Positions 9,921-63,752 of a DNA stretch of 64,000 bases are shown here, one piece after another (the stretch's first letter is position 1; every line of letters begins with the position of its first letter). Location: the NCBI RefSeq assembly GCF_003590945.1, contig NZ_QYUK01000011.1, positions 2,946,909 to 3,010,908 of the forward strand, given 5' to 3'. The stretch comes from Oleomonas cavernae (GTDB taxonomy: Bacteria; Pseudomonadota; Alphaproteobacteria; Zavarziniales; Zavarziniaceae). The notes below the pieces were generated by a model. It searched no databases and was not told the DNA's origin. It saw only the letters and a program-made list of their open reading frames with translations. A program made the translations under genes and the position numbers.

Positions 9921-11145
9921 TTACACGCCGAACAGCAGGCGCTGCGGGTCTTCGATCGCTTCCTTGACGCGGACCAGGAAGGTGACCGCCTCGCGGCCGT
10001 CGACGATGCGGTGATCGTAGGACAGGGCCAGATACATCATCGGGCGGATGACTACCTGCTTGTTGATCACCATCGGCCGGTCCTGGATCTTGTGCATGCC
10101 CAGGATGCCGGATTGGGGCGGGTTGATGATCGGGGTCGACATCAGCGAACCGAAGACACCGCCGTTGGAGATGGTGAAGGTGCCGCCCTGCAGATCCTCG
10201 ATCGCCAGCTTGCCGTCGCGGGCCTTCGTCCCCAGGCGCGCGATCTCCTTCTCGACGTCCTGGAAACCCAGGGCGTCGCAATCGCGCACCACCGGCACGA
10301 CCAGGCCCTGCGGCGAGGAAACCGCGACCGAGATGTCGTAGTAGTTCTTGTAGATGATGTCGTCGCCGTCGATCTCGGCATTGACCGCCGGGATCTCTTT
10401 CAGCGCCTGGACGCAGGCCTTCACGAAGAAGGACATGAAGCCCATCTTCACGCCGTGCTTCTTCTCGAACAGGTCCTTGTAGAGGGTGCGCGCTTCCATC
10501 AGCGCGGTCATGTCGACCTCGTTGAAGGTGGTCAGCATGGCGGCGGTGTTCTGCGCCGACTTCAGCCGTTCGGCGATGCGCTTGCGCAGGCGGGTCATCT
10601 TCACCCGTTCCTCGCGCGCGGCATTGGCGCGCGGGCCCGACGGGGCGGCCGGGCCGGGGCCGGGGCCGGCGCCGCCTGGGCGGCCAGCACGTCCCCTTGG
10701 TGATGCGGCCGTCGGGGCCGGTGGCCGGGATCGCGGCCGGGTTCAGGCCGGATTCGGAAATCAGCTTGCGCGCGGCGGGGCCGGGCTGGGCAGCGGTGGC
10801 GGCGACGGGCGCCGGTGCAGGCTGCGGGGCCGGGGCAGCGACCGGCGCGGGTGCCGGGGTCGGCGCGGGCGCGGCCGGCTTGGGCGCGGCCGGGGCGGCG
10901 GCGGTCGCCGTCTCGTCGAGCGCGCCCAGGATCTGGCCGATGGTCACCGTGTCGCCGGGCTTGGCGTCGATCCGGGTCAGCACGCCGGCGCTCGGCGCGT
11001 TCACCTCGACCGCCACCTTGTCGGTCTCGAGCTCCACCAGGGGCTCGTCGCGCTTCACCGCGTCACCGACATTACGGAACCACTTGCCGATGGTCGCCTC
11101 CGTGACGGACTCGCCGAGCGTCGGGACCTTCAGTTCGATTGTCAT
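9921..11145 (-). CDS. odhB: Dihydrolipoyllysine succinyltransferase (E2 of 2-oxoglutarate dehydrogenase), frameshifted in this sequence
   Basis: The protein has an N-terminal lipoyl domain (K43 in [10 protein letters not shown]), a long Ala/Pro linker, a peripheral subunit-binding domain ([19 protein letters not shown]) and a C-terminal acyltransferase domain with [13 protein letters not shown], which carries the catalytic His and Asp. It transfers the succinyl group to CoA. Two frames encode the parts. Adding one base at the run 10693-10696 (after GRITKG) and one in the run at 10651-10653 restores a 408-residue protein with linker [20 protein letters not shown]. Both are G/C runs, so undercalled homopolymers are likely. 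It is flanked by sucA upstream and, past a palindromic repeat, lpdA downstream. Confidence 0.93.
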
Positions 11146-11191
11146 TTTCTAGCCTCTTCGGCGTGACTGATTACTGATGTTCGGGATTGGA

Positions 11192-26353: not shown

Positions 26354-27663
26354 CTAACGGCAGGTGGCGTCGAACTGCGGGATCGAATGGTCGGGGCGGT
26401 CTGTTGGCCGGCCGCCGCGCATCAAGCGGCCGTGGGCGTCGGACGGCGGCGGCAGGGAACGGGAAACGGTCAGCAGCAGGCTGGCCACCAGCGGACTGGC
26501 ATAGGAGGTACCGCTGATATGCTCGACCGTGCCGTCGGCCGCGCTGATGGCGAGGCCGGCCCCCGGCGCCGCCACCCCCGGTGCCGCCAACGGGGCCGAT
26601 TGCGGCCACAAGCGGCCCAGGCGATCGACGGCGGCAACCCCGACCACGCCGGGATAGGACGCCGGATAGGCGGGCGCGGCAGCGGGGCCGCCGTTACCGG
26701 CGGCCGCAACCAGGCGCAGGCCCGCGGCAGAGGCGCGCCTGACCACTTCCCGCAACAGGGGGTATCGGGTCCGGCGAGGCTGATATTCACCACCGCCACT
26801 TTTTCGGAAACCATCCAATCCAGGGCGGCGGCAATCGCGGTCGCCGAGGCCATCGCCCGGCCGTCGATCGATTGCACTGCCGCCGCATAGAACACCTCAG
26901 CCTTCGGGACCAGCCCGGCCATGACCGGCCCCTGTCCGGCCATCAGGCTGGCCACGATGGTGCCATGACGCGACTCCGCCGGGCTGCCGTCGAGGTCGGC
27001 CGCCCCGTAGGACTGGATCACGGCCCCGAGCAGCGTTGGCGCCCCGAGATCGATCGGTGTGTCGATCACGCCGATCCGCAGGCCCGCCGCGCAATCCCCG
27101 GCGGCGGCGCTCCAGCCCATCAGGCGGGCCGGCCACAGGAACTCGCCCGACAGCGGGGCCGGCGGCTCGGCACTGCTCGCTCCCTCGAGGCCGTAGAGCC
27201 CGTTGAGACCGACCTCGCTGCGCGGCAGGGCGGCCCGAATGGCGGCGATCGCCTCGTCCATGTCCCGGGGCGGCAGAACCCGGACACGGATCACGGTGAG
27301 GCCCAGGGCCGCGAGGCGCCGTTCACGGATGATGGGATAGCCAAGGGCGCGCAAGGCCGGATAGTCAATGTCCGGCGCGGTGATCACGACCTCGCCCGCG
27401 ACCGAGCGGTCGCGCCCGCCCCCGGCGCCATCGGCGCCACTGTCGCCGCCGCCGTTGTCGTCGCTGCCGCTGTCGTCGCTGCCGCTATCGTCACTGCCGC
27501 TGCCGCTATTGCTGCTGCCGCCGTCGTCCCCGCCCGAACCCGATCCGCCGCCGCCGTCCGAGCCATGGCCGCTCGAATCGCCGCCGCCTTTGGCCCAGGC
27601 GGGCGCGACCGCCCCGCCAAGCAGGCACAACACGGCGAGCAATCGGCAAAGACGCCCCGTCAC
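26354..27663 (-). CDS. Secreted S8 family serine peptidase (subtilase), frameshifted in this sequence
   Basis: The GTG start overlaps the anti-sigma stop (GTGA). A signal peptide (CRLLAVLCLLGGAVAPAWA) is followed by about 60 residues of Gly/Ser/Asp low complexity, a prodomain-like region (ITAPDIDYPALRALGYPIIR) and the catalytic domain. The triad is Asp in RIGVIDTPIDLG, His in ESRHGTIVASLMAG and Ser in GTSYASPLVASLL. The frame breaks after SLAGPDTP at the five-G run 26758-26762; one extra base joins it to LLREVVRRASAAGLRLVAAAG and gives 436 residues. It is the third gene of an ECF sigma/anti-sigma operon, so it is either a regulated output or a protease acting on the anti-sigma factor (inference). 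Confidence 0.88.
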
Positions 27664-28184
27664 GGCCCGACCAGAACGGTCTCGAGAGTGCCGTCGATCG
27701 ACCGGCAGACCACCGCGCGCGTCGCCCGATCGGTCGAGACCATCAGGCGGCAGGCGCCGGGCAGCGCCGCGGCAGCCTGGGCGGCCAGCACCTCGCCGTC
27801 GGGCAGGGTCAGGCGTTCGGGCACCCCGGCCGCCGTCGCCTCGCTGCCCGCCGGGGCGTAGGCCGGCGCCGACGGCCCGCGCTCCAGGGCGAAGGAGATG
27901 GCGACCGCCGTCACGGCCAGCGCCGCCGCCGCGGCCATCCAGCGGGTGGCCGGCATCGGCGGGCGGCGGATCCGTGCGGCCAGGGCGATCGGCACCGGCT
28001 CGGGCGGGGCCGCGTCGCGGGCGATGGCCAGCACCGCCGCCGAGGCGACGAAGGCATCGAAGCGTGCCTTGACCTCGGCATCGAAGCTCAAGGCGGCAGC
28101 AACGGCATGCTGCTGGCCGGCGGCCAGCGCGCCGTCGGCCATAATCATCAAGGTTACGTCGTCGATCTTTTCCAGGGTGGTCAC
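27660..28184 (-). CDS. Transmembrane anti-sigma factor
   Basis: The 174-residue product starts at GTG 28184, overlapping the sigma gene stop (GTGA). The N-terminal 75 residues resemble anti-sigma domains (DDVTLMIMADGALAAGQQHA). One membrane helix lies near residues 82-100 (MAAAAALAVTAVAISFALE), and a short periplasmic tail follows with two cysteines (GACRLMV, RAVVCRSIDG). It should hold the ECF factor at the membrane until an envelope signal releases it. It has no zinc-binding HxxxCxxC motif. Confidence 0.8.
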   Translation of the reverse strand: MTTLEKIDDVTLMIMADGALAAGQQHAVAAALSFDAEVKARFDAFVASAAVLAIARDAAPPEPVPIALAARIRRPPMPATRWMAAAAALAVTAVAISFALERGPSAPAYAPAGSEATAAGVPERLTLPDGEVLAAQAAAALPGACRLMVSTDRATRAVVCRSIDGTLETVLVGP

Positions 28185-28693
28185 GTCCGGCCCTCCATCT
28201 GCAATGTCCTGGCCAGGGCCAGGCGGGCCCGGGCGAGGCGCGAGCGTACCGTGCCGGCGGCAACGCCCAGGATCTTCGCAACCTCGTCATGATCGAGGTC
28301 TTCGATGGCACAAAGCAGGATCACTTCACGATGATCATCGGTCAGGCCGTCGATCGCGCGCCAGATGTCGATGGCACTAGGCGCGTCGTGCGGTGCCGTG
28401 GCCGCCGCATCGGCGCGATCGAACAGTGCCGCCCCGGTCTCGGCATTGCGTTGCACCCGCTGGCCACGGCGCAGCACATCGATCCAGGTGTTGCGGACCA
28501 CCGTATAGCACCAGGCCGGCCCGATGCTGACCGACAGATTGGTATCGACATGGCGCAGCATACGCTCGCAAGCCTCCTGCAATAGGTCGTCACCGCGATC
28601 GTCCGAGCGTGCCAGGCGGCGGGCGAACCGCCGCAGGCTTGGCAACAGATCGAGCAATATTTTCCGGCCGCTTCCCGTCCGCACCATCAGCAC
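28181..28693 (-). CDS. ECF-type RNA polymerase sigma factor
   Basis: The 170-residue protein has region 2 (RRFARRLARSDDRGDDLLQEACERM with AWCYTVVRNTWIDVLRR) and region 4 (LTDDHREVILLCAIEDLDHDE, ILGVAAGTVRSRLARARLAL). It lacks region 3, as expected of an extracytoplasmic-function sigma factor. It heads an operon with its anti-sigma factor and a subtilase, each joined by 4-base GTGA overlaps. A divergent exported repeat protein starts 125 bases away and may share its control. No certain autoregulated promoter was recognised in the intergenic region. Confidence 0.92.
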   Translation of the reverse strand: MLMVRTGSGRKILLDLLPSLRRFARRLARSDDRGDDLLQEACERMLRHVDTNLSVSIGPAWCYTVVRNTWIDVLRRGQRVQRNAETGAALFDRADAAATAPHDAPSAIDIWRAIDGLTDDHREVILLCAIEDLDHDEVAKILGVAAGTVRSRLARARLALARTLQMEGRT

Positions 28694-28817
28694 CCAAACC
28701 CGCCTTTGCCAGTGATAACGTCGCTCCCGGGCGGCGCGTCCCTGTTCAGAAAAAAATATTTCGGCCGCCCGGGGCGGAGCAGCGGCGCGCCGGTCGTCGT
28801 CTCAGGAGGTGTGGTGG

Positions 28818-29270
28818 ATGACCACGCGCACCAACCGGAGACTTCCGATGACTTCATTACTCAAACTGGCCGGCGGCGTCACCGCCGCCCTGATCATCAC
28901 CGCCGCGCCGATCGGCTTCAGCCTGCAGCATGGCTTTACCGGTCTCGCAAAGGCCGAAGCCCGCGAGAGCGGTAGCGGCGGCCATGGCGGCCATGGTGGC
29001 GACAGTGGCCGCGGCGGCGACGATCACGGCGGCAGAAGCACCGGCCACGGCGGTGATGATGGCGCCGGCGACGACCATGGCGGCACGAGTGCCGGCCACG
29101 GCAGCGACGACGGGGCCGGCGACGACCACGGCGGCGATGATGCCGGCGGCCTTGCAGGCGATGACGACGGGACCGCGGATCAAGGCGCCGGCGATGCGCC
29201 CGGGACCGTACCTTCGGGCGGCGGCGATGACGACGGCACGCCCGATCAGGGGCCTGGCGAGGCCAGCTGA
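28818..29270 (+). CDS. Exported Gly/Asp/His-rich repeat protein, unknown function
   Basis: The ATG at 28818 follows an AGGAGG site eight bases upstream; 150 residues result. An N-terminal export signal (LLKLAGGVTAALIITAAPIG) is followed by about 100 residues of low complexity built from roughly 17-residue units containing GHGGDDGAGDDHGG and GHGSDDGAGDDHGG, then two copies of a GDDDGT-DQG motif. Such Asp/His-rich sequence could bind divalent cations (inference). It is divergent from the ECF sigma operon, whose subtilase carries a similar Gly/Ser/Asp-rich stretch. No domain family is recognised. Confidence 0.65.
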   Translation: MTTRTNRRLPMTSLLKLAGGVTAALIITAAPIGFSLQHGFTGLAKAEARESGSGGHGGHGGDSGRGGDDHGGRSTGHGGDDGAGDDHGGTSAGHGSDDGAGDDHGGDDAGGLAGDDDGTADQGAGDAPGTVPSGGGDDDGTPDQGPGEAS

Positions 29271-43062: not shown

Positions 43063-45542
43063 CTATAATACCCGCTCGCCGGCCTCGTTGATCAGGACTT
43101 CGCGCTTGCCGACATGGTTGGGCTTGCCGACGATGCCGGCCGCTTCCATCTGCTCGATGATGCGGGCGGCGCGGTTGTAGCCGATCTGCAGGTGGCGCTG
43201 GATGAAGCTGGTCGAGGCCTTGCCCTCGCGCGCCACCAGGGCCACCGCCTTGTCGTAATTGTCGTCGCCGGTCGAAGCACCGGCCATGCCGTCTTCCAGC
43301 GCCTCCATGCCCTCGGGTTCCTCGGTGACGGCATCGACGTAACTGGGCTCGCCCTGGGCCTTCAGGAAGGCGATCACCGCCTCGACTTCGCCGTCCGAAC
43401 AGAACGGGCCATGGACGCGGGTGACGCGGCCGCCGCCGGCCATGTAGAGCATGTCGCCCTGGCCCAGCAACTGCTCCGCCCCCTGCTCGCCCAGGATGGT
43501 GCGGCTGTCGATCTTGGAGGTGACCTGGAACGAGATGCGGGTCGGGAAGTTCGCCTTGATCGTGCCGGTGATGACGTCGACCGAGGGCCGCTGGGTCGCC
43601 AGGATCAGGTGCATGCCGGCCGCCCGCGCCATCTGGGCCAGGCGCTGAATGGCCCCTTCGATGTCCTTGCCGGCGACCATCATCAGGTCGGCGAATTCGT
43701 CGACGATGATGACGATGAAGGGCAAGGGCTCCAGCGGGATCGCCTGTTCCTCGAAGATCGGCTTGCCGGTCGAGGGTTCGAAGCCGGTCTGCACCGTGCG
43801 CTTCAATTCCTCGCCCTTGGCCTTGGCTTCGGCGATGCGGGCATTGTAACCGGCGATATTGCGCACGCTGAGGCGCGACATCTTGCGATAGCGATCCTCC
43901 ATCTCGCGTACCGCCCATTTCAGCGCCACCACTGCCTTGCCCGGCTCGGTCACCACCGGCGCCAGCAGGTGGGGGATACCCTCGTAGACCGAGAGTTCGA
44001 GCATCTTGGGATCGACCATGATCAGCTTGCACTGGTCGGGCGGCAGCCGGTACAGGATCGACAGGATCATGGTGTTGATCGCCACCGACTTGCCCGAGCC
44101 GGTGGTACCGGCGACCAGCAGGTGGGGCATGCGCGACAGGTCGGCGACAATGGGCGTCCCACCGATGTCCTTGCCCAGGGCCAGCGTCAGGGCCGAGGCG
44201 GTCTTCTCGTATTCCTGGGACGAGAGGATTTCCGACAGCCACACCGTCTCGCGCTTCACATTGGGCAGTTCGATACCGATGACGTTGCGCCCCGGCACGA
44301 CCGAGACGCGGGCCGAGATGGCGCTCATCGAGCGGGCGATGTCGTCGGCCAGGCCGATCACCCGGGCCGACTTGGTGCCCGGCGCGGGTTCGAGTTCGTA
44401 GAGCGTCACCACCGGCCCGGGGCGGACCTTGACGATCTGGCCGCGCACGCCGAAATCCTCGAGCACGGATTCGAGCAGGCGGGCATTGGCCTCCAGCGCC
44501 TCCTCGTCGATCGCATCCTTGGCATCGACACGCGGCGGCGGCTGCTTCAGCAGGGACAGGGGCGGCAGCTGGTGCTGGTCCTCGGGCCCCAGGTCGAGGG
44601 CGGCCTGGGTCTCCTCGACCGCGCGCTTGCCGGGCCTGGCCACCTTGGGCGCGCTGGCGACCAGCTTGCGGGTGTCGGGCGGCGCCTCGGCCACCACATC
44701 CTCGCGCAACGGACGAACCCTGGGGCCGCCGCTTCCGGTGCCGGCGAGGGGTCGACGAAACGCGGCTCGACCCGCTCGCGCTTAGGGCCAGGGGCGCGGC
44801 GCGGCGGCGCCTCCTGGGCGTCGGCATCGCGGCTGTGCAGGCGCAGGTCGGGCATCGCCTTGTCGCGCCGGCCCCACAGGCGGGTGGCATGGCCGACCAG
44901 CCACTGGCTGCTGTGACGGCCGACGCGCGTCGCCCGGGCGGCACCACGGCCCAGGGCCCGCCATTCGCCCAGGGAAAGCCCCATCGCCGAGACCAGCACC
45001 ATCAGGCACAGCAGGATCAGCACCAGCGACAGGCCGCCGCCCTCCAACCCCAGGCCGATGGCGGCGAAGAACTGCCGGGCGCCGGGTTCCGCCACCGCAC
45101 CGATCATGCCGCCCAGGCCGCTGCGCAGGGGCCAGCCGTCGGGGATCGAGAAGCCGTTGACGCCGGCAGCACCCAGGGTGAGCGCCAAGGGCGCCAGGCC
45201 GAAGTTCAGCCACCACAGGCGCAGGCCGCGATGGGAAAACAGGCGCCAGGCCCAGGCCAGCAGGATCAGCGGCAGCAGGCCCGCGGCAATCCCCAGCCAC
45301 TGGATCGCCAGGTCGGCGACATGGGATCCCAGGGGGCCGATCAGGTTGCGGGTCGGGGCATCGGTCTCGACGTTGAAACTGGCATCGCCCGACGAATAGC
45401 TGACCAGGGCCAGGCCCAGCCCGGTCGCCAGGGCGAACAGGCCCAGGCCCATGATCTCGGCCAAACGGCTTTGCACCGCCCGGCCGAACGCCGCCGGGAA
45501 CAGGCGCAACTTCTCAGACGATGTACCGGCCGTGTTGGCCAT
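43063..45542 (-). CDS. ftsK: DNA translocase FtsK, frameshifted in this sequence
   Basis: Four to five membrane helices lie in the first 210 residues ([60 protein letters not shown]), then a Pro/Ala linker and the motor domain with Walker [20 protein letters not shown], Walker [16 protein letters not shown] and [20 protein letters not shown]. The C-terminal gamma domain ([20 protein letters not shown]) reads KOPS sites. The frame breaks in the linker; one extra base in the run 44722-44725 gives [14 protein letters not shown] and an 826-residue protein. FtsK couples septation to chromosome segregation with XerCD. Confidence 0.95.
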
Positions 45543-45671
45543 GCCTGACCTCAAGGGGTGCCTGACCGCAAGGGGCCGCGAATCAACTGCCCGGCACCCA
45601 CGGCGCCGGAACGAATCAACAACCGAAAACTACACGCCGGCGGGCGACGGGGCCAGAGGCGTCATTTTTGC

Positions 45672-46665: not shown

Positions 46666-46711
46666 CCCTTGCGCGGAAGAAATGCTGATCGTCCACTGTC
46701 TCTTGATGGCG

Positions 46712-50579: not shown

Positions 50580-51065
50580 ATGACCAAGCCCGCACAATCC
50601 CCCAGGCCCCGGCCCCCGCGCAGCTTGCGCAGCGACGCCACCCGCGTGCTCGACGAATGCCCCGCCTGGCACCTGCGCCTGGCCGCGCGCAAGATCACGG
50701 TCTTCCTCGATGCGCACTTGGCACCCAGCAGCCTGACCACCGCGCAATTCGGCCTGATGTCCCTGCTGGCGGCGGCCCGCGACGACACCCTGGGCGCCCT
50801 GGCCCAACGCGCCGGCCTCGACCAATCCACCCTGTCGCGCAACCTCGACACCCTCGCCCGCCTGGGCTGGGCCGAGATCACCACAAGCACCCGCGACCGC
50901 CGCAAACGCGCGGCATGGCTGACCGAGGCGGGGGCACGGAAACTGGCGGCCGCGATGCCGCTGTGGCGGGCGGCGCAGGAGGCCGTGGCGGGGGTGGTGG
51001 ATGTGGTGGTGGCTAGGCAGGCCGGAGAGTCGGCACAAGCGTCGCGGTTAAACCGCGAGAATTAA
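50580..51065 (+). CDS. MarR family transcriptional regulator
   Basis: The 161-residue protein has LTTAQFGLMSLLAAARDDTL, a recognition helix region LGALAQRAGLDQSTLSRNLD and a wing EITTSTRDRRKRAAWLTEAG with the D-R-R pattern. It starts 46 bases from the divergent thioesterase. Its final residues (VVVARQAGESAQASRLNREN) are near the boundary where base composition drops, so the C-terminus may have been altered by whatever inserted the following segment (inference). Confidence 0.88.
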   Translation: MTKPAQSPRPRPPRSLRSDATRVLDECPAWHLRLAARKITVFLDAHLAPSSLTTAQFGLMSLLAAARDDTLGALAQRAGLDQSTLSRNLDTLARLGWAEITTSTRDRRKRAAWLTEAGARKLAAAMPLWRAAQEAVAGVVDVVVARQAGESAQASRLNREN

Positions 51066-51267
51066 AAAATCCGCTTAGGATTCGCTTGGCGTTCGAAGCA
51101 GAAGTAGAGAAGATCCAGTTCGAATGACGAGATCTAGCCAGATTGCGCCGTTCGCCAGTAAGGGCAAAGCTGGAAACCGGAAGCGGTGGGGCTCAGGCAG
51201 CATCGCAAGGGGGTTACTGGCCTGTCATTCTTCGACGTTCGATTGTGGTAGTCGAATCAGGGGGCAC

Positions 51268-54200
51268 ATGACAACGCACATCACCGCTAGACTGGCGTGG
51301 CACGACGACGGATGGAATGGTGCAATCTGCAGAAAACCAGAGCGCAATACCTATTGTGTCGGATGCAAGTCATATCCCGGCGACGTTATCGCTCGCGAGC
51401 GCGATTTGGCACTCGAACAAAGATTGGCCGGGCGAGCAGCTAGCAAACTTGAAGGGTATGTCCCGCCTTGCAGCTATAGTTACAACGCGTTCGGTCTTGA
51501 TGAAGCGCCAGCCGCCGCCAACCCGCCGGATTTCTTCTTTGGCGGCGCCACGCGGCACAAATGGTCTCTCCCCCCCGCCACTGTCAGCACTTGGCCATAT
51601 GAGGCAATGTATTCAGATGAGGTTAGGCAATCTGGCTATCTTGACAACGATATTCGCAAGGACTTAGTCAATAAATTCTACAAACCAATTGAGGACGACT
51701 GTCCAAACAACCTTATCTTCTACTATGTGAACTATTCCAATCCACTGTCCGAGGATAATGCACCCCGTTATGTAATGATTGGCGTGTCGCGCATTACGCA
51801 AGTCAGCGAGGAACGGCGCTACGAGAATGTGAATGAGAACGTCGGTAAGCGCTATGCCGGTGGGATGATCTGGGCGCGCGACATTTCCTCAGCCTATCCC
51901 GAAGAGGGCGTCCGACTTCCCTATCATCGCTATCGCGATGATCTAGAAACGCTCGAAAGCTTTGCGGTCATTCCTGAACGGGCCGCGCTCTGCAAATACG
52001 GCTCCAAGCATCTAAGCGACGACGATGCTATCGGATTGCTCGAGCAGTTCCTCGCCAAAGTCAGGTTGCTCAAGGCCAGTGGTGACATTTCTGAGGACTG
52101 GAATATCCGCGAAGCTTGGCTGCTGAAGTCGATAGCCGGTCTGTGGAAGCACCGTGGACTATACCCTGGGCTGCTAACGACATTGACTGTCATCGGCGCT
52201 GTCCAACTGATCGATACGGCGAAAGCGCTTTGCATCAAGCAAGGGCACGCCGCTGCGCACGCTGCTATTTTTGGCGCTCTAGAGACCGGTGATTTCAGAG
52301 GATTGGCGACTGTGCTGACCCCCGCTGAAAGCAAGAAGATCTCGCGCAGCTGGCTATTGTTAGAGGATGGTGCGCGATTGCTGCTGCGCGACATACTGCC
52401 TCGGCTAGAGTTGTCAGCGGAAGCGATGGCCGCGATTGCGTCCAAACAATGGACCGAAGGTGGTGTCGAGGTCCGCCCTGAGGAGATCATCAAAAATCCC
52501 TACCTCCTCTGCGAACTCTATTGCGGCGAGGACGCGTCGGACCGCATTCCCTGGGGCACTATTGATCGCGGAGTCCTGCCCTCACCGGACGTCGGGGCGC
52601 CGCTAGCGGGCATCGACTATAACGATGCTGGTCGCTTCCGTGCCCTTTGCGTCGAGCATCTTCGTCAAGAGCCCAAGCATAACTTCCGGTTGGCGCGCGA
52701 CCTCATAGTTGAGATCGCTCAGCGTATGGAGCGGCTACCCGCATGGAAACAGGCCACATTCAGCGAGCGCTATTTCGACGTCGATGCCAACATCCTGTCA
52801 GGCGCACTGACTTTACAGTCGACCGACGAGGGCCAGATTGTTTATCTGAAATCGGTCTTTGAGGACGAGCGCTATGTCGAGGAAGTGTTGCAGCGCTTGG
52901 TGACTCGACCCAGCATCGAATTGCGTCGCCCGCTGATCATGGCGGACTGGAACAGCTGGGTACACAAGTCGGGTAGCATGCTGGCACAGCAGGGCGGCGC
53001 AGACTATCGCGACGCAACCCGCGAACAGGCGGGCATCTGCGAGCGCCTGTTCCTCCGACCGCTATCGGTCGTTACGGGTGCAGCCGGCACCGGCAAAACG
53101 ACAGTCATCCAGGCACTGATACACGCCGTCCGGCGATCCGAGGGGGAAGGCGCAAATATCCTCGTCCTAGCGCCGACCGGTAAGGCAGCAGATCGCGCAC
53201 GAGAGGTACTTGAGGACGCCAAGTTGCAGCGCGTCGAAACAGTGACGGTGCATTCCTTCCTCGCGAGGCATGGTTGGCTCAACGACAACCTCACCTTTAA
53301 GCGGCGAGGCGGCAAGCTGGCTGAGGTCGGGACGCTTGTGCTTGACGAGGCGTCGATGCTTGATCTGGAGCTGGCAGCAGCACTAATGCGTGCGGTCAAT
53401 TGGCAGACCGTCCGCCGGCTAATCTTGGTGGGAGACGCCAACCAGCTACCGCCTATCGGGCGTGGGCGCGTATTCGCCGACGTCATTCGCTGGCTCAGCA
53501 CCAACTATCCCGAAAGCTTCGGACGCTTGACGATCAACCTTCGGCAGTTGCTGACCCGAGCCAGAGGAGAAGGCAGTGCGATCGTCGAGTTATCGCGGCT
53601 CTTCATCCTTCAGGATATCGAGATCACTACCGACGGCAAAGATGACTGGGACCAACCAACAAGCCTCGCCGAGGAGAAGCTGATTGAACGCATCCACGCC
53701 GGCGGCCTTGTCGATCGCGATTTGGACGTTGTCTACTGGGATGATCCCCAGCGGCTCGCAGACACCCTTATTGGCGCGATTGAGACGAAGATGCGTGGTG
53801 GAGGGTCAGACGACAAAGGCCGGCCTGATCAGCTCTGGCGAACCTCACTGGAACGCGATCCGACAGCGTTCCAGATTTTGACACCACATCGAGGGGAGAT
53901 GCATGGTGTCGAGGCGCTCAATGAGGCGTGTCAGACGCACATCGCCGATTTCGTGATTTCCCGCGTCGGGGCAATCGATGGCATCACTCTGAACGATAAG
54001 GTCATTCAGATCTGCAATAGACCAAAGTCGAATCCGATCTGGGCCTACGACAACAACACGCGTGAGAAGTGCAGAGTCGAGATCTTTAATGGCGAAATAG
54101 GAATTGTACGCAACTTCGGCTTCGACAATCGCCTTTGGGAGACAATTCGAACTGGCTATGGCCCCAGGCTGAAGCGATTTGCGGTACAGTTCACACGCAA

Positions 54201-54915
54201 GCCCGGCATCACGGTCGGCTACGGCAAGGATGTGCCGCATGGTGGACGATACCTGCGCAACGAACGTGTCGAGGATAATCTGGAACTTGCCTATGCGGTG
54301 TCGATCCACAAGGCTCAGGGCAGCGAGTTCGCCCATACATTTGTGATCATTCCGGCGAGCCACAATCGCCCAGTCTCGGCTGAGCTGATCTATACCGCTC
54401 TGACACGCGCTAGCCGGCATTGCACCTTGCTGATAGAGCGAGACATCACCAGTCTTTTGAACGCCCGGCGGCGGGAAAACGCGCAAACTCCGCAAATAAA
54501 CTCGTCGATGTTCGGATATTTGCATCTCGCCAAACAGCAACTGCTCGAACGGCGTAGCTGGTATGAATCCGGCAAGATCCATGAGGCGCTGACCGGTGAC
54601 ATGCTGCGCTCCAAATCGGAAGTAATCATCGCCAACCTGCTGCATGAACGTGGCATACCATTTCGCTACGAACAGCCCTTGTTCGCGGGGGACGGCACAA
54701 TAAAGCTTCCGGATTTCACTGTCACTATCGCTGGGCGCACCTTCTTCTGGGAGCATCTCGGCATGCTCGACCAAACCAACTATGCGGAGGATTGGGCGGC
54801 AAAGGAGGCGTGGTACCAGCGCTGGTTCCCCGGACAGCTTGTTACAACCAAGGAAAGCGGGCGGCTTAGCCGAGATGCCGAAGGGTTGGTAACCAAACTA
54901 TCATCAGCCGCATGA
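51268..54915 (+). CDS. Large RecD-like SF1 helicase with C-terminal PD-(D/E)xK-like nuclease domain; putative defence protein
   Basis: The 1215-residue protein starts at ATG 51268 after a GGGGG site. Residues 1-100 include HDDGWNGAICRKPERNTYCV and a CxxC (YCVGCKSYPG). About 100-590 is a large region of unknown fold. A RecD-type ATPase core follows: Walker A VVTGAAGTGKTTVIQAL (near 604), LVLDEASMLDLELAA (693), LVGDANQLPPIGRGRVFADV (722), SIHKAQGSEFAHTFVIIP (1011) and LIYTALTRASRHCTLLIERD. The C-terminus has RSKSEVIIANLLHERGIPF (E1118), LPDFTVTIAG (D1149) and FFWEHLGML (E1162), a PD-(D/E)xK-like array in which the usual lysine is not in place. The gene is clearly more A/T-rich than its neighbours and stands alone. 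Phage or plasmid defence is inferred; repair is the alternative. Confidence 0.8.
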   Translation: MTTHITARLAWHDDGWNGAICRKPERNTYCVGCKSYPGDVIARERDLALEQRLAGRAASKLEGYVPPCSYSYNAFGLDEAPAAANPPDFFFGGATRHKWSLPPATVSTWPYEAMYSDEVRQSGYLDNDIRKDLVNKFYKPIEDDCPNNLIFYYVNYSNPLSEDNAPRYVMIGVSRITQVSEERRYENVNENVGKRYAGGMIWARDISSAYPEEGVRLPYHRYRDDLETLESFAVIPERAALCKYGSKHLSDDDAIGLLEQFLAKVRLLKASGDISEDWNIREAWLLKSIAGLWKHRGLYPGLLTTLTVIGAVQLIDTAKALCIKQGHAAAHAAIFGALETGDFRGLATVLTPAESKKISRSWLLLEDGARLLLRDILPRLELSAEAMAAIASKQWTEGGVEVRPEEIIKNPYLLCELYCGEDASDRIPWGTIDRGVLPSPDVGAPLAGIDYNDAGRFRALCVEHLRQEPKHNFRLARDLIVEIAQRMERLPAWKQATFSERYFDVDANILSGALTLQSTDEGQIVYLKSVFEDERYVEEVLQRLVTRPSIELRRPLIMADWNSWVHKSGSMLAQQGGADYRDATREQAGICERLFLRPLSVVTGAAGTGKTTVIQALIHAVRRSEGEGANILVLAPTGKAADRAREVLEDAKLQRVETVTVHSFLARHGWLNDNLTFKRRGGKLAEVGTLVLDEASMLDLELAAALMRAVNWQTVRRLILVGDANQLPPIGRGRVFADVIRWLSTNYPESFGRLTINLRQLLTRARGEGSAIVELSRLFILQDIEITTDGKDDWDQPTSLAEEKLIERIHAGGLVDRDLDVVYWDDPQRLADTLIGAIETKMRGGGSDDKGRPDQLWRTSLERDPTAFQILTPHRGEMHGVEALNEACQTHIADFVISRVGAIDGITLNDKVIQICNRPKSNPIWAYDNNTREKCRVEIFNGEIGIVRNFGFDNRLWETIRTGYGPRLKRFAVQFTRKPGITVGYGKDVPHGGRYLRNERVEDNLELAYAVSIHKAQGSEFAHTFVIIPASHNRPVSAELIYTALTRASRHCTLLIERDITSLLNARRRENAQTPQINSSMFGYLHLAKQQLLERRSWYESGKIHEALTGDMLRSKSEVIIANLLHERGIPFRYEQPLFAGDGTIKLPDFTVTIAGRTFFWEHLGMLDQTNYAEDWAAKEAWYQRWFPGQLVTTKESGRLSRDAEGLVTKLSSAA

Positions 54916-55331
54916 GAAACGTCACACTGTCTCTTGTAGGTGCAGTCAGTTTGAGGTCAGCTTTTGGTGATTCGAATAATGAGAAATGACGACTGGGCGG
55001 AGACAGGACTATTTGGTCTCAACTGCAAGGTATCCGTCTTGTACCAAATCCAGAGACGGGCTGCGCCAGCGATTGAATCTGCCCGCATTACCGGAAGGTT
55101 AAGAGAAATAGCGGACAGCCCGCGATTTTAAATGCTGGACCGCACCGCGGCGATAAGTGCACCAGACGGCTCGACCACACTTCGTAAGACCTGGGCATGC
55201 GGGTCAAGGCAACCCGGGCGTTGGGCGGACAGCGGCGCTCGGAAGCTCCCCAAGCGGGGCCGGGGGACAGCCAAGGGCACGAAGCGGTAACCAGATAAGC
55301 GCCGCCGTCCACCTCCTCCACCGCGCGCCCC
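54916..55331. other. Non-coding right flank of the helicase island
   Basis: There is no convincing gene in 416 bases. The first half is A/T-rich like the helicase; the base composition returns to the GC-rich background from about 55140. The short open frame on the minus strand at 55088-55321 has no family resemblance or ribosome-binding site. No integrase, tRNA or clear direct repeat was found. Confidence 0.6.
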
Positions 55332-61605: not shown

Positions 61606-62622
61606 TCATGGGCCATGCCGCCCCCGTTTCGTGCGGGGAGCCAGCGACTTGTCGCCTGCCTTCCACGCCTTGACGTTCTGCGCCTTCCATCGCAACGCCG
61701 GAGAGACCTCGACAGCGGCGCGTACAATGTCAGGTACCTCCAGAGAGGAGGCATCTATCTCGCCCCGCTCCAGCACGGCATCCAGAAATGCCTTCTCACC
61801 CGCTGTAAACTGAAACAGCGGTGCGAGCTTTTGTCGGCACTCGCCCGTAACCCTCTCGATCCAGGCGGCCGGGCCGCCGAAGGCATCGAAATACCGCTCG
61901 CGCAAACACATGGTCAGTTTGCCGGTGATGTCACCGACTTCGCACCCGATAGCGTCCGGTGAGGCTGTTCGCCAGTCGAAGCTCTTGGCGCTGGCACCGA
62001 TCATCAAGGTGGCCGTCTTGATCTTCGCCCAGTCGAGGTCCGGCATCGCGATGATTCGGTGCGCATCGAACAGATCGCGCGCGGTGCGCCGCGTGACCAG
62101 CGCGACCATCTTGCCGGCGACGATCTCATGGATGTCGAGAACGGGCACGTTCATGGCCTGATAAGAACCGATCGCCACCGATGACATGCGGTCTACCCCA
62201 TAGAGGGGGCCACGATAGAGATAGTTGATGTCGATCTCGATGGTCCCTGCCCCACCCAGCGCGGAGGCATAGCGATAGATCCATTTACCGCCGGCATGCT
62301 CGGCGGGCTCTCGCCGAGCGGTGTAACCTTTCGATTCCATCAGCCGCTCGATCCGGTCCTCCAGTGCCGGCCGGTCCGCGTCCATCTGCTCTTTCTCAAC
62401 CGCGCCGACATAGTTGACATCGATATCGACCGAGAGACGGTCCAGGTTGGCATGGAAGACGTTGAGCGCCGTCCCGCCCTTCAGGGCGATTCGCGGCCCG
62501 ATCAGCGTATCGGCGCCGAAGGCATCGAGAATGTCGATCAGCCGGATCACCCGCTCCAGCGTCGCTGGCTGAAGCTGTCGCTCAGCCGCGATGTCCCGAA
62601 GGTTTTCACGGGACACGACCAT
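61606..62622 (-). CDS. AbiEii-type nucleotidyltransferase toxin
   Basis: The 338-residue protein has the nucleotidyltransferase signature IALKGGTALNVFHANLDRLS, followed by VDIDVNYVG (the G-G-T and D-x-D catalytic array of the AbiEii/AbiGii family), with VPVLDIHEIVAGKMVALVTR and TARDLFDAHRIIAMPDLDWA. AbiEii toxins stop growth after phage infection by modifying tRNA in characterised cases. Its start abuts the antitoxin stop. The pair lies just past tRNA-Gly, a common insertion point. Confidence 0.9.
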   Translation of the reverse strand: MVVSRENLRDIAAERQLQPATLERVIRLIDILDAFGADTLIGPRIALKGGTALNVFHANLDRLSVDIDVNYVGAVEKEQMDADRPALEDRIERLMESKGYTARREPAEHAGGKWIYRYASALGGAGTIEIDINYLYRGPLYGVDRMSSVAIGSYQAMNVPVLDIHEIVAGKMVALVTRRTARDLFDAHRIIAMPDLDWAKIKTATLMIGASAKSFDWRTASPDAIGCEVGDITGKLTMCLRERYFDAFGGPAAWIERVTGECRQKLAPLFQFTAGEKAFLDAVLERGEIDASSLEVPDIVRAAVEVSPALRWKAQNVKAWKAGDKSLAPRTKRGRHGP

Positions 62623-63435
62623 TCACATACCCTCAAACGTGGCGTCAACGACCCGGGCCGGGAGAAGCACGCGCCATGGTTCGACGAGCACCGCGTCGCC
62701 GGGCTCGGCGCCCAGCGCATAGTGCTTCGAGCGCGGGAGCTGTTCCCGCAGGCGCGCCAGGACGTCATCCGTCACGCCCAGCATCGCGCGCCGCGTCTCG
62801 AGCCACCAGCCGGCGACTGAGGCGAGCGACCGCGTCCCCAGCCGTTCGACATAGCCGGCGATCTTCGTTGGATCGAGATAGCGCATCAGATCAAGCGATT
62901 TCAGAACCTCCTCGACACCGCCCGCGAGATCCGGCCGGTGCAGAACATCCACGACGGTGCGCTCCACAGCGGTCACACGGATCGCGACCCCCTGCCGATC
63001 CATCGTCATGGTCAGGTCGTCAGCCCTGCCCGCCTCCACCAAGGCTTTCGGTGGATTGATGAAGCGACAGGCGCCGAATGGCAGGTCCACGAGCTCTGTC
63101 CGGCCCGCGCTGATGAGTTGGACCTCGTTGAATTCGGAATAGGCTATGCCGTGCAGCTCCAGTGCAGAGTGATATCCAAGAACGCCATCCCGGCGGAGCT
63201 TGCTCGCCGCGGCGAAGCGGTCAACCACCATCCGCTCCGCCGGCAGGTGGGCCGGCACCGCTGCGAACACCTCGCGGCTGAGACGCTTGATGTTGCCAAC
63301 CCTGAGGTGATGCCTGAGCAAGCTGGTAACATTGGCGGCACTCGTCGGATGACCAAAGACGGCCGCAAACTCCGCCCGGGTGAAGACCGGGTGAGCTGAA
63401 AGGAAACTGGCCGTCTTGTGTTGGCGAGATTGCAT
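62623..63435 (-). CDS. AbiEi-type antitoxin / transcriptional regulator
   Basis: The 270-residue product from ATG 63435 (MQSRQHKTASFLSAHPVFTR) has an N-terminal winged helix (EFAAVFGHPTSAANVTSLLR) and an AbiEi C-terminal domain (RDGVLGYHSALELHGIAYSE, AVERTVVDVLHRPDLAGGVE). AbiEi normally binds its own promoter and neutralises AbiEii in a type IV manner. The antitoxin gene precedes the toxin gene, as usual, with zero bases between. The upstream 60 bases are A/T-rich and probably hold its promoter. Confidence 0.88.
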   Translation of the reverse strand: MQSRQHKTASFLSAHPVFTRAEFAAVFGHPTSAANVTSLLRHHLRVGNIKRLSREVFAAVPAHLPAERMVVDRFAAASKLRRDGVLGYHSALELHGIAYSEFNEVQLISAGRTELVDLPFGACRFINPPKALVEAGRADDLTMTMDRQGVAIRVTAVERTVVDVLHRPDLAGGVEEVLKSLDLMRYLDPTKIAGYVERLGTRSLASVAGWWLETRRAMLGVTDDVLARLREQLPRSKHYALGAEPGDAVLVEPWRVLLPARVVDATFEGM

Positions 63436-63752
63436 CGAGTTATCAATCTTGTACCTGAATGGGTAAAATATTGCCATTCTACTTCATAATTATCAACTCT
63501 CCGATCCTCGGGCCCAGCCCTATCTGCCACGCAGTCATTGCAATAAATGACCCCGAGAAGCTAAAAATTACCCCTTATGGTACGATTTATAAAACTAGCC
63601 ATAACGCTACGCAAACACCATCGCTTCGACATCGGGGCCAGCACCCGGACCAGACCCACGCTCCCTGCGCGTAGCATAACCGTCACAACCATTCCGCTTG
63701 CCGGCGCCAGCCAAGGCGCTAGGCTATTCGCGCTATGGTTGGGAGAAACCTT
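63436..63752. other. A/T-rich intergenic region between abiEi and the lipoprotein gene
   Basis: There is no convincing gene in 317 bases; short open frames here have no ribosome-binding site or family resemblance. The first 160 bases are clearly A/T-rich and presumably hold the AbiE promoter. The last 60 bases lead to the lipoprotein's GGGAGA site. Confidence 0.6.

Follow-up and report, generated by a model that had tools for sequence, protein, structure and literature searches.

Within a stretch of 64,000 nt from Oleomonas cavernae (contig NZ_QYUK01000011.1, positions 2,946,909 to 3,010,908, hereafter the window), an operon for an extracytoplasmic function (ECF) sigma factor, a membrane anti-sigma factor and an exported subtilase faces a gene for an exported protein rich in Gly, Asp and His. 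Do these genes belong together, and if so, is the protease an output of the sigma factor or the trigger that releases it? The plan of ECF sigma factor, anti-sigma factor, pro-subtilase and exported Gly-rich protein was found to recur in Alpha-, Beta- and Gammaproteobacteria. On balance we lean towards the view that the locus represents an ECF-controlled envelope module that recurs in proteobacteria, with the subtilase and the Gly-rich protein as its outputs. The computed basis for this consists of the gene layout, its recurrence, a promoter motif upstream of the sigma, subtilase and Gly-rich genes of relatives, and a pro-subtilisin fold in a homologue from a second genome of the same genus (G004). 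The elements of the window, in window positions, are as follows.

28181..28693, minus strand: ECF sigma factor, 170 aa, GTG start (PF04542, PF08281; 50% identity to the G004 sigma factor)
27660..28184, minus strand: putative membrane anti-sigma factor, 174 aa, with one transmembrane helix between a cytoplasmic helical domain and a periplasmic part that contains the invariant pair Cys145 and Cys160 (from sequence)
26757..27663, minus strand: exported pro-subtilase, first piece, with signal peptide, Gly/Ser/Asp-rich segment, propeptide and catalytic Asp and His (sequence and Pfam; fold from the intact G004 homologue)
27409..27588, minus strand: low-complexity Gly/Ser/Asp segment that follows the subtilase signal peptide and precedes the propeptide; its ends are approximate (from the translation)
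26753..26766, minus strand: run of C holding the frame-change site, approximate (sequence)
26354..26760, minus strand: subtilase, second piece, in another frame, with the oxyanion-hole Asn and GTSYASP (Pfam, genome search)
28748..28763, no strand: AT-rich block in the gap between the sigma gene and the divergent repeat-protein gene, a candidate regulatory site (found by eye; a similar block lies in the same gap of G004)
28818..29270, plus strand: exported Gly/Asp/His-rich repeat protein, about 150 aa (ATG at 28818 is the best start, behind AGGAGG; GTG at 28809 is also open)
29019..29171, plus strand: three 17-residue units starting DDHGG (tandem-repeat search, translation)
29163..29186, plus strand: first C-terminal motif, DDGTADQG (DNA pattern, G000:C11:2976071, G000 being the source genome)
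29229..29252, plus strand: second C-terminal motif, DDGTPDQG (DNA pattern, G000:C11:2976137)

The genes of the operon follow one another in the order sigma (28693-28181), anti-sigma (28184-27660) and subtilase (from 27663), and both junctions are GTGA overlaps, as a first-pass annotation made from the letters of the window had stated. Its description of a one-helix anti-sigma factor beside an ECF sigma factor also held. Pfam placed PF04542 at residues 16-79 of the sigma factor and both PF08281 and PF04545 within residues 109-160, all above cut-off, and no region 3 model stood among the eight matches listed; the protein thus has regions 2 and 4 without region 3, the make-up of an ECF sigma factor. 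In the anti-sigma factor a single hydrophobic helix was predicted from the sequence at about residues 82-100. Pfam gave no match for this protein, and the NCBIfam anti-sigma models matched it weakly, below cut-off. The divergent exported protein built of units of about 17 residues was confirmed as well: its three DDHGG units begin at residues 58, 75 and 92 (numbered from the Met at 28848), and a search for tandem repeats returned a 51-bp repeat in its gene (2.5 copies, 82% matches).

A search for the sigma factor over 96 genomes led to G004, where the sigma factor is about 50% identical and, by reading, the same four genes stand in the same arrangement between different flanks. A subtilase family model, built from an alignment of four subtilases, then identified members in 43 or more of the 385 alphaproteobacterial genomes, counting the source genome of the window; the figure is a lower bound, as at most four candidates were scored per genome. 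The best 80 subtilase loci, kept with their record titles, came from Alpha-, Beta- and Gammaproteobacteria and from Nitrospirales, with Caulobacter, Sphingomonas and Massilia among the genera. Altogether 129 loci were fetched, and removal of three duplicates (L041, L076, L093) left 126 distinct loci, the window not counted. Within the fetched DNA, 86 of them carried an ECF sigma gene that belongs to the broad related clade (at least 140 bits), 20 another sigma gene and 20 none. Sigma and subtilase genes lay on opposite strands in 76 of the 86 loci, nearly all divergent, and on the same strand in 10, the sigma gene being upstream in seven of these (L037, L038, L114, L155, L156, L163, L190). All seven of the latter had a low-complexity segment in the subtilase, versus 11 of the 76 opposite-strand loci, where some cases (L080 and L164, for example) may reflect an over-long open reading frame (ORF) start. 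The genome-context survey that the first-pass annotation had proposed as a check was thereby passed and the genes form a real association, with the same layout in G004 and a member of the repeat-protein family beside the operon in a further genome, G168.

Inspection of the fetched loci also gave some observations on other neighbours. Three Microvirga loci (L121, L128, L139) have family subtilases with low-complexity N-terminal parts, and no ECF sigma gene was found in their fetched DNA. A conserved exported protein resembling an outer-membrane barrel is encoded on the strand opposite the subtilase, mostly just downstream of it, in L077, L085, L087, L088, L089, L158 and L166; the one in L077 had only a weak LptD match, below cut-off. 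A further conserved protein family is encoded within 4.5 kb of the subtilase in L043, L075, L083, L096, L145, L164, L168 and L173.

Exported Gly-rich proteins were concentrated at loci with the related sigma factor. By a fixed script, such an ORF lay within 2.5 kb of the subtilase in 42 of the 86 loci and farther out in three more (one being L156's own partner-type gene), and in none of the 40 loci lacking a related sigma gene (0/20 with another sigma gene, 0/20 with none). The detector gave doubtful matches in L106, L148 and L152 and missed the partners in L094, L117, L127 and L144. Two types of partner were seen. In the divergent type, a protein starting ...AQ(L/V)LGGGG(L)GG... past the signal peptide is often encoded downstream of the subtilase; these partners are rich in Gly, Ser and Ala, not in acidic residues, and none of the six tested had a Pfam match above cut-off. 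In the co-directional type, the neighbours are rich in Asn and Gly in L038, L155 and L156, which have a FecR-type protein with a Gly-rich tail in addition (assigned by Pfam in L038 and by similarity in L155 and L156), and rich in Asp, Glu and Gly in the window, L037, L163 and L190. For L114 no Gly-rich neighbour was found in the fetched DNA. One of the Gly-rich exported proteins of L038, L155 and L156 has a conserved GKLNGF..NASPNS domain, the other being the FecR-type one, and a CHASE2-domain gene lies beyond the Gly-rich genes of L038.

The unusual low complexity shared by both exported products, pointed out in the first-pass annotation, is real, but the degree to which the two match within a locus is modest. 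After correction for catalytic-domain distance, the compositions of the low-complexity segments were related per locus with a partial r of 0.26, a value reached in 58 of 5000 permutations; because the automatic segmentation was noisy, this offers modest support only. In L163 the leader of the subtilase also resembles that of its neighbour.

A motif was derived from the regions upstream of 87 sigma genes. It reads GGAATAAA (or GGATGAAA), then 13-14 bp and CGTT, that is, GGAAT-N16/17-CGTT, which we take to resemble the EcfG general-stress promoter; cross-recognition is possible. The score exceeded the 99th percentile of shuffles for 71 of the 87 regions, a partly circular result: since the model was trained on the same regions, only its use on non-sigma genes is independent. 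There, the 260 bp before the gene held a match scoring at least 14 for 32 of the 44 Gly-rich genes and for 44 of the 86 subtilase genes; among the controls, such a match was present in 17 of 1780 random pieces and in 1 of 173 regions upstream of other genes. Where the sigma gene is on the opposite strand, 116 motif matches fell in 49 kb around the sigma-subtilase gap, against 92 in 811 kb elsewhere. Sigma-dependent expression of the exported genes, as foreseen in the first-pass annotation, is therefore supported by predicted promoters upstream of many of them in relatives, but not by any in the window itself: around the divergent start the best scores were -2.8 and 0.0, and the best of the whole 64 kb was 14.0, at 46673.

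The predicted structures bear on what the subtilase and the anti-sigma factor may do. The G004 subtilase, modelled without its low-complexity part, reached a mean predicted local distance difference test (pLDDT) score of 87 and matched unprocessed pro-Tk-subtilisin across 324 residues (Z 36.4). The modelled propeptide, which precedes the catalytic domain, has the elements E8-16, H22-28, E30-38, E43-50, H56-66 and E71-79, a beta-alpha-beta-beta-alpha-beta order. The protein is thus predicted to be a canonical pro-subtilisin with its low-complexity segment ahead of the propeptide, and because of this position the segment would leave with the propeptide on maturation. Among 21 relatives (including L190, which is frame-split) the catalytic Asp and His do not vary, and conservation of the GTS Ser is at least 90%. 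For the anti-sigma factor, the AF2 model of the L163 protein has four N-terminal helices, with pLDDT mostly above 80, a membrane helix at 106-125 and a domain at 146-225 consisting of a well-predicted helix and five strands. One transmembrane helix followed by a periplasmic domain is therefore the predicted topology. Two Cys residues of the C-terminal part occur in 68 of 68 anti-sigma factors (67 of 83 candidates that passed an N-terminal DG sequence filter, plus the window), and the L163 model places them on neighbouring strands. The best match of the N-terminal part, RslA (3hug), had a Z of 7.1 over 58 residues, although this may be a common helical-bundle arrangement; ChrR (2q1z) reached a Z of 4.6. 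No convincing relative of the periplasmic domain or of the repeat proteins was found in Pfam, NCBIfam or the PDB. Foldseek and VIA matches near Z 5 (pyruvate carboxylase, VirB8, NTF2-like) were set aside as common arrangements.

The subtilase of the window does not have its catalytic triad in one open frame. The Asp and His lie in the frame that starts at 27663 and stops at 26470 (397 codons), and the Ser motif GTSYASP lies in a different one (ORF 26818-26354). Hence the exported subtilase of the first-pass annotation keeps its signal-peptide-like start and its Gly/Ser/Asp stretch, but not an intact single frame. Both pieces match Peptidase_S8 (PF00082) above cut-off, at profile positions 3-122 and 135-251 of 288. 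Past the frame change, the sequence still has coding composition (GC content of 0.84 at third codon positions, GC3), contains the Asn and Ser motifs and ends normally. The gene is open in G004, G043, G170, G343 and G309; in G168 (L190) it is split near a run of G, at a different place from the window.

Other genes of the same assembly are broken in a similar way. In sucB (2-oxoglutarate dehydrogenase E2; window 9921-11150, minus strand), profile parts 1-145 and 171-403 lie in different frames, and no other match in the genome passed the sucB cut-off in a profile search. A second E2-like gene (C11:1427750-1429017) is likewise in two pieces, and an ftsK-like gene (window 43063-45554, minus strand) occupies two frames, split near 44.7 kb. 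Since frame splits also affect sucB and ftsK of this window, and the subtilase is open in several relatives, the frame change in the window subtilase is probably an indel error of the assembly, and the copy in the living cell would be intact. A second intact copy was not found in the genome: the search returned the two window pieces, one distant subtilase-like gene at C11:1258225 and one weak match. Programmed frameshifting was rejected, given that the change does not occur at the same place in G168 as in the window, that five relatives are open, and that sucB, ftsK and the E2-like gene of the same assembly are split too.

The repeat protein belongs to a family that we define by a leader, Gly/acidic repeats and terminal DDGT(P/A)DQG motifs, two of which are present in the window, G168, G043, G170, G267 and G343 and one in G004. 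As a DNA pattern the motif occurred in seven of 385 alphaproteobacterial genomes, from three genera (the reversed control pattern had one match among the rows listed), and in a phylum sample of 398 genomes it was confined to two of these seven. The 43 genomes with the subtilase include all seven. The gene adjoins the operon in three of them, from two genera (G000, G004 and G168, in the last downstream of the subtilase). The linkage of this family to the ECF operon is thus real, although not universal. At L217 to L220 (in G170, G267, G043 and G343) the DDGTPDQG protein stands by a two-component system, not by this operon; the domains of that system were confirmed by Pfam in G267 alone. An exchange of regulator may lie behind this.

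These results can be put together as follows. The ECF sigma factor would be held at the membrane by the one-helix anti-sigma factor, whose folded periplasmic domain with its invariant Cys pair would act as the sensor; a periplasmic signal acting on that domain would free the sigma factor. Once free, it would transcribe its own operon, the pro-subtilase and the gene of the Gly-rich protein, a low-complexity exported product that would work outside the inner membrane. The subtilase would then mature and trim or mature the Gly-rich protein or other envelope proteins. It would be an effector, not the trigger, a role that we rate higher because the subtilase gene often has its own predicted sigma-dependent promoter.

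Several observations weigh against this reading. By the script, 44 of the 86 core loci have no Gly-rich neighbour. Among 36 related sigma loci taken with 1.5-kb flanks, only five, window included, have a subtilase-family match; in most cases no subtilase gene is close to the related sigma gene, so the clade extends beyond the module, and several sigma genes of this subtilase-free group carry a similar promoter motif. No good motif match lies between the sigma and repeat-protein genes in the window or in G004, and the subtilase is frame-split both here and in G168. Finally, the DDGT(P/A)DQG gene adjoins genes for a response regulator and a histidine kinase in four of its seven genomes (G043, G170, G267 and G343), and the only subtilase locus of G267 has another kind of sigma factor.

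Could the subtilase instead be the switch itself, making a site-1 cut in the anti-sigma factor that leads to regulated intramembrane proteolysis and positive feedback, with the Gly-rich protein as a bystander target? Its predicted location on the same side of the membrane as the periplasmic domain, the linkage of the genes in 86 of 126 loci, and the modelled single helix and folded domain of the anti-sigma factor would suit such a cut. According to PMC8999054, ECF54, a group with subtilases in its genomic context, has been proposed to be under proteolytic control, but also to act without an anti-sigma factor. The predicted promoter of its own in 44 of 86 loci is moreover what a target gene would have, and we regard the subtilase as an unlikely trigger. 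Just as unlikely in our estimate is a decaying operon in the source genome, with a real frame change and a lost promoter, from which only sigma factor, anti-sigma factor and repeat protein are made. The two frames of the subtilase, the lack of a promoter match between the sigma and repeat genes, and the lack in the window anti-sigma factor of the Trp and C-terminal tail found in most relatives would all fit decay. Yet the splits in sucB, ftsK and the further E2-like gene point to sequence errors, the subtilase has kept its GC3 of 0.84, its Asn and Ser motifs and its normal end past the frame change, and G004 lacks the motif as well although its subtilase is open.

The remaining alternatives concern the repeat protein. 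The first-pass annotation suggested metal binding by its Asp/His repeats, and the protein could be a metal-binding buffer in an operon that answers metal stress: of the 103 residues past its leader, 22 are Asp and 7 are His, and the paired DDDGT(P/A)DQG ends presumably resemble DxDGxxD calcium loops. This proposal is weakened because His is not conserved in the family, whereas Gly and acidic residues are; the divergent-type partners are not acidic, and Pfam had no match for the window protein or the two family members tried. A metal buffer seems improbable to us. Still less credence is given to the repeat protein being an unrelated neighbour of the sigma/anti-sigma/protease operon by chance. 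The presence of the same family beside a two-component system in four of seven genomes would suit that, but in three genomes, drawn from two genera, a member adjoins the operon, and operons of this kind show a strong general enrichment of exported Gly-rich genes. An extension of the module reading is more speculative than the reading itself, and we offer it as a tentative idea with little weight: the ECF switch might build an extracellular, protease-loaded matrix, in which the pro-subtilase segment and its like-composed Gly-rich partner co-assemble, the protease is positioned or switched on at the polymer that it shapes, and the segment is shed with the propeptide.

The module is made of parts of known kinds. 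As in the pairs SigL-RslA, SigE-ChrR and RpoE-RseA, there is a two-domain ECF sigma factor and an anti-sigma factor with a membrane helix and, as modelled, an N-terminal helical domain that may be of the same kind (RslA being its best structural match). In contrast to class I anti-sigma factors, the periplasmic helix and five-strand domain with its invariant Cys pair had no confident structural match, and the recurrent subtilase and Gly-rich exported neighbours set the module apart from pairs of the SigL-RslA type. Pro-subtilisins of family S8 (pro-Tk-subtilisin, pro-subtilisin E) have the same alignment of propeptide and catalytic domain; here, however, the propeptide comes after a Gly/Asp/Asn/Ser-rich segment or some other extension, and the gene is tied to an ECF sigma factor. 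Genes of type I secretion or RTX adhesin loci lie near some loci (a HlyD-family gene in L079, an RTX protein in L124, a large DUF5801 protein in L038); no such gene was seen by reading among the ORFs of window 22-34 kb, nor an RTX Pfam match in the repeat protein.

The nearest published note found is the ECF54 proposal, which we compare by its published description (PMC8999054): a subtilase lies near the ECF sigma gene there too, but ECF54 is described as lacking an anti-sigma factor, whereas here an anti-sigma gene overlaps the sigma gene. No paper on the module was found among the listings of our literature searches, which did not contain the 2021 ECF reclassification (10.1093/nar/gkaa1229), where the module may be listed; nor did a sigma-run pair of a protease and a matched Gly-rich low-complexity protein turn up in these searches.

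Two further features of the window lie away from the operon. GC content falls to 0.54-0.60 at 51000-55000, around a 1263-aa ORF (51124-54915), possibly a foreign insertion. On the minus strand at 61606-63477, a gene pair resembles, by eye, an AbiE-type toxin-antitoxin system (nucleotidyltransferase and regulator).

The association described here ties exported Gly-rich low-complexity proteins of Proteobacteria to a regulator, a promoter motif and a protease, so that their function becomes testable in common laboratory strains of Caulobacter, Sphingomonas or Massilia. It also brings forward a subtilase that seems not to have been studied and that may partner an ECF switch in Gram-negative bacteria.

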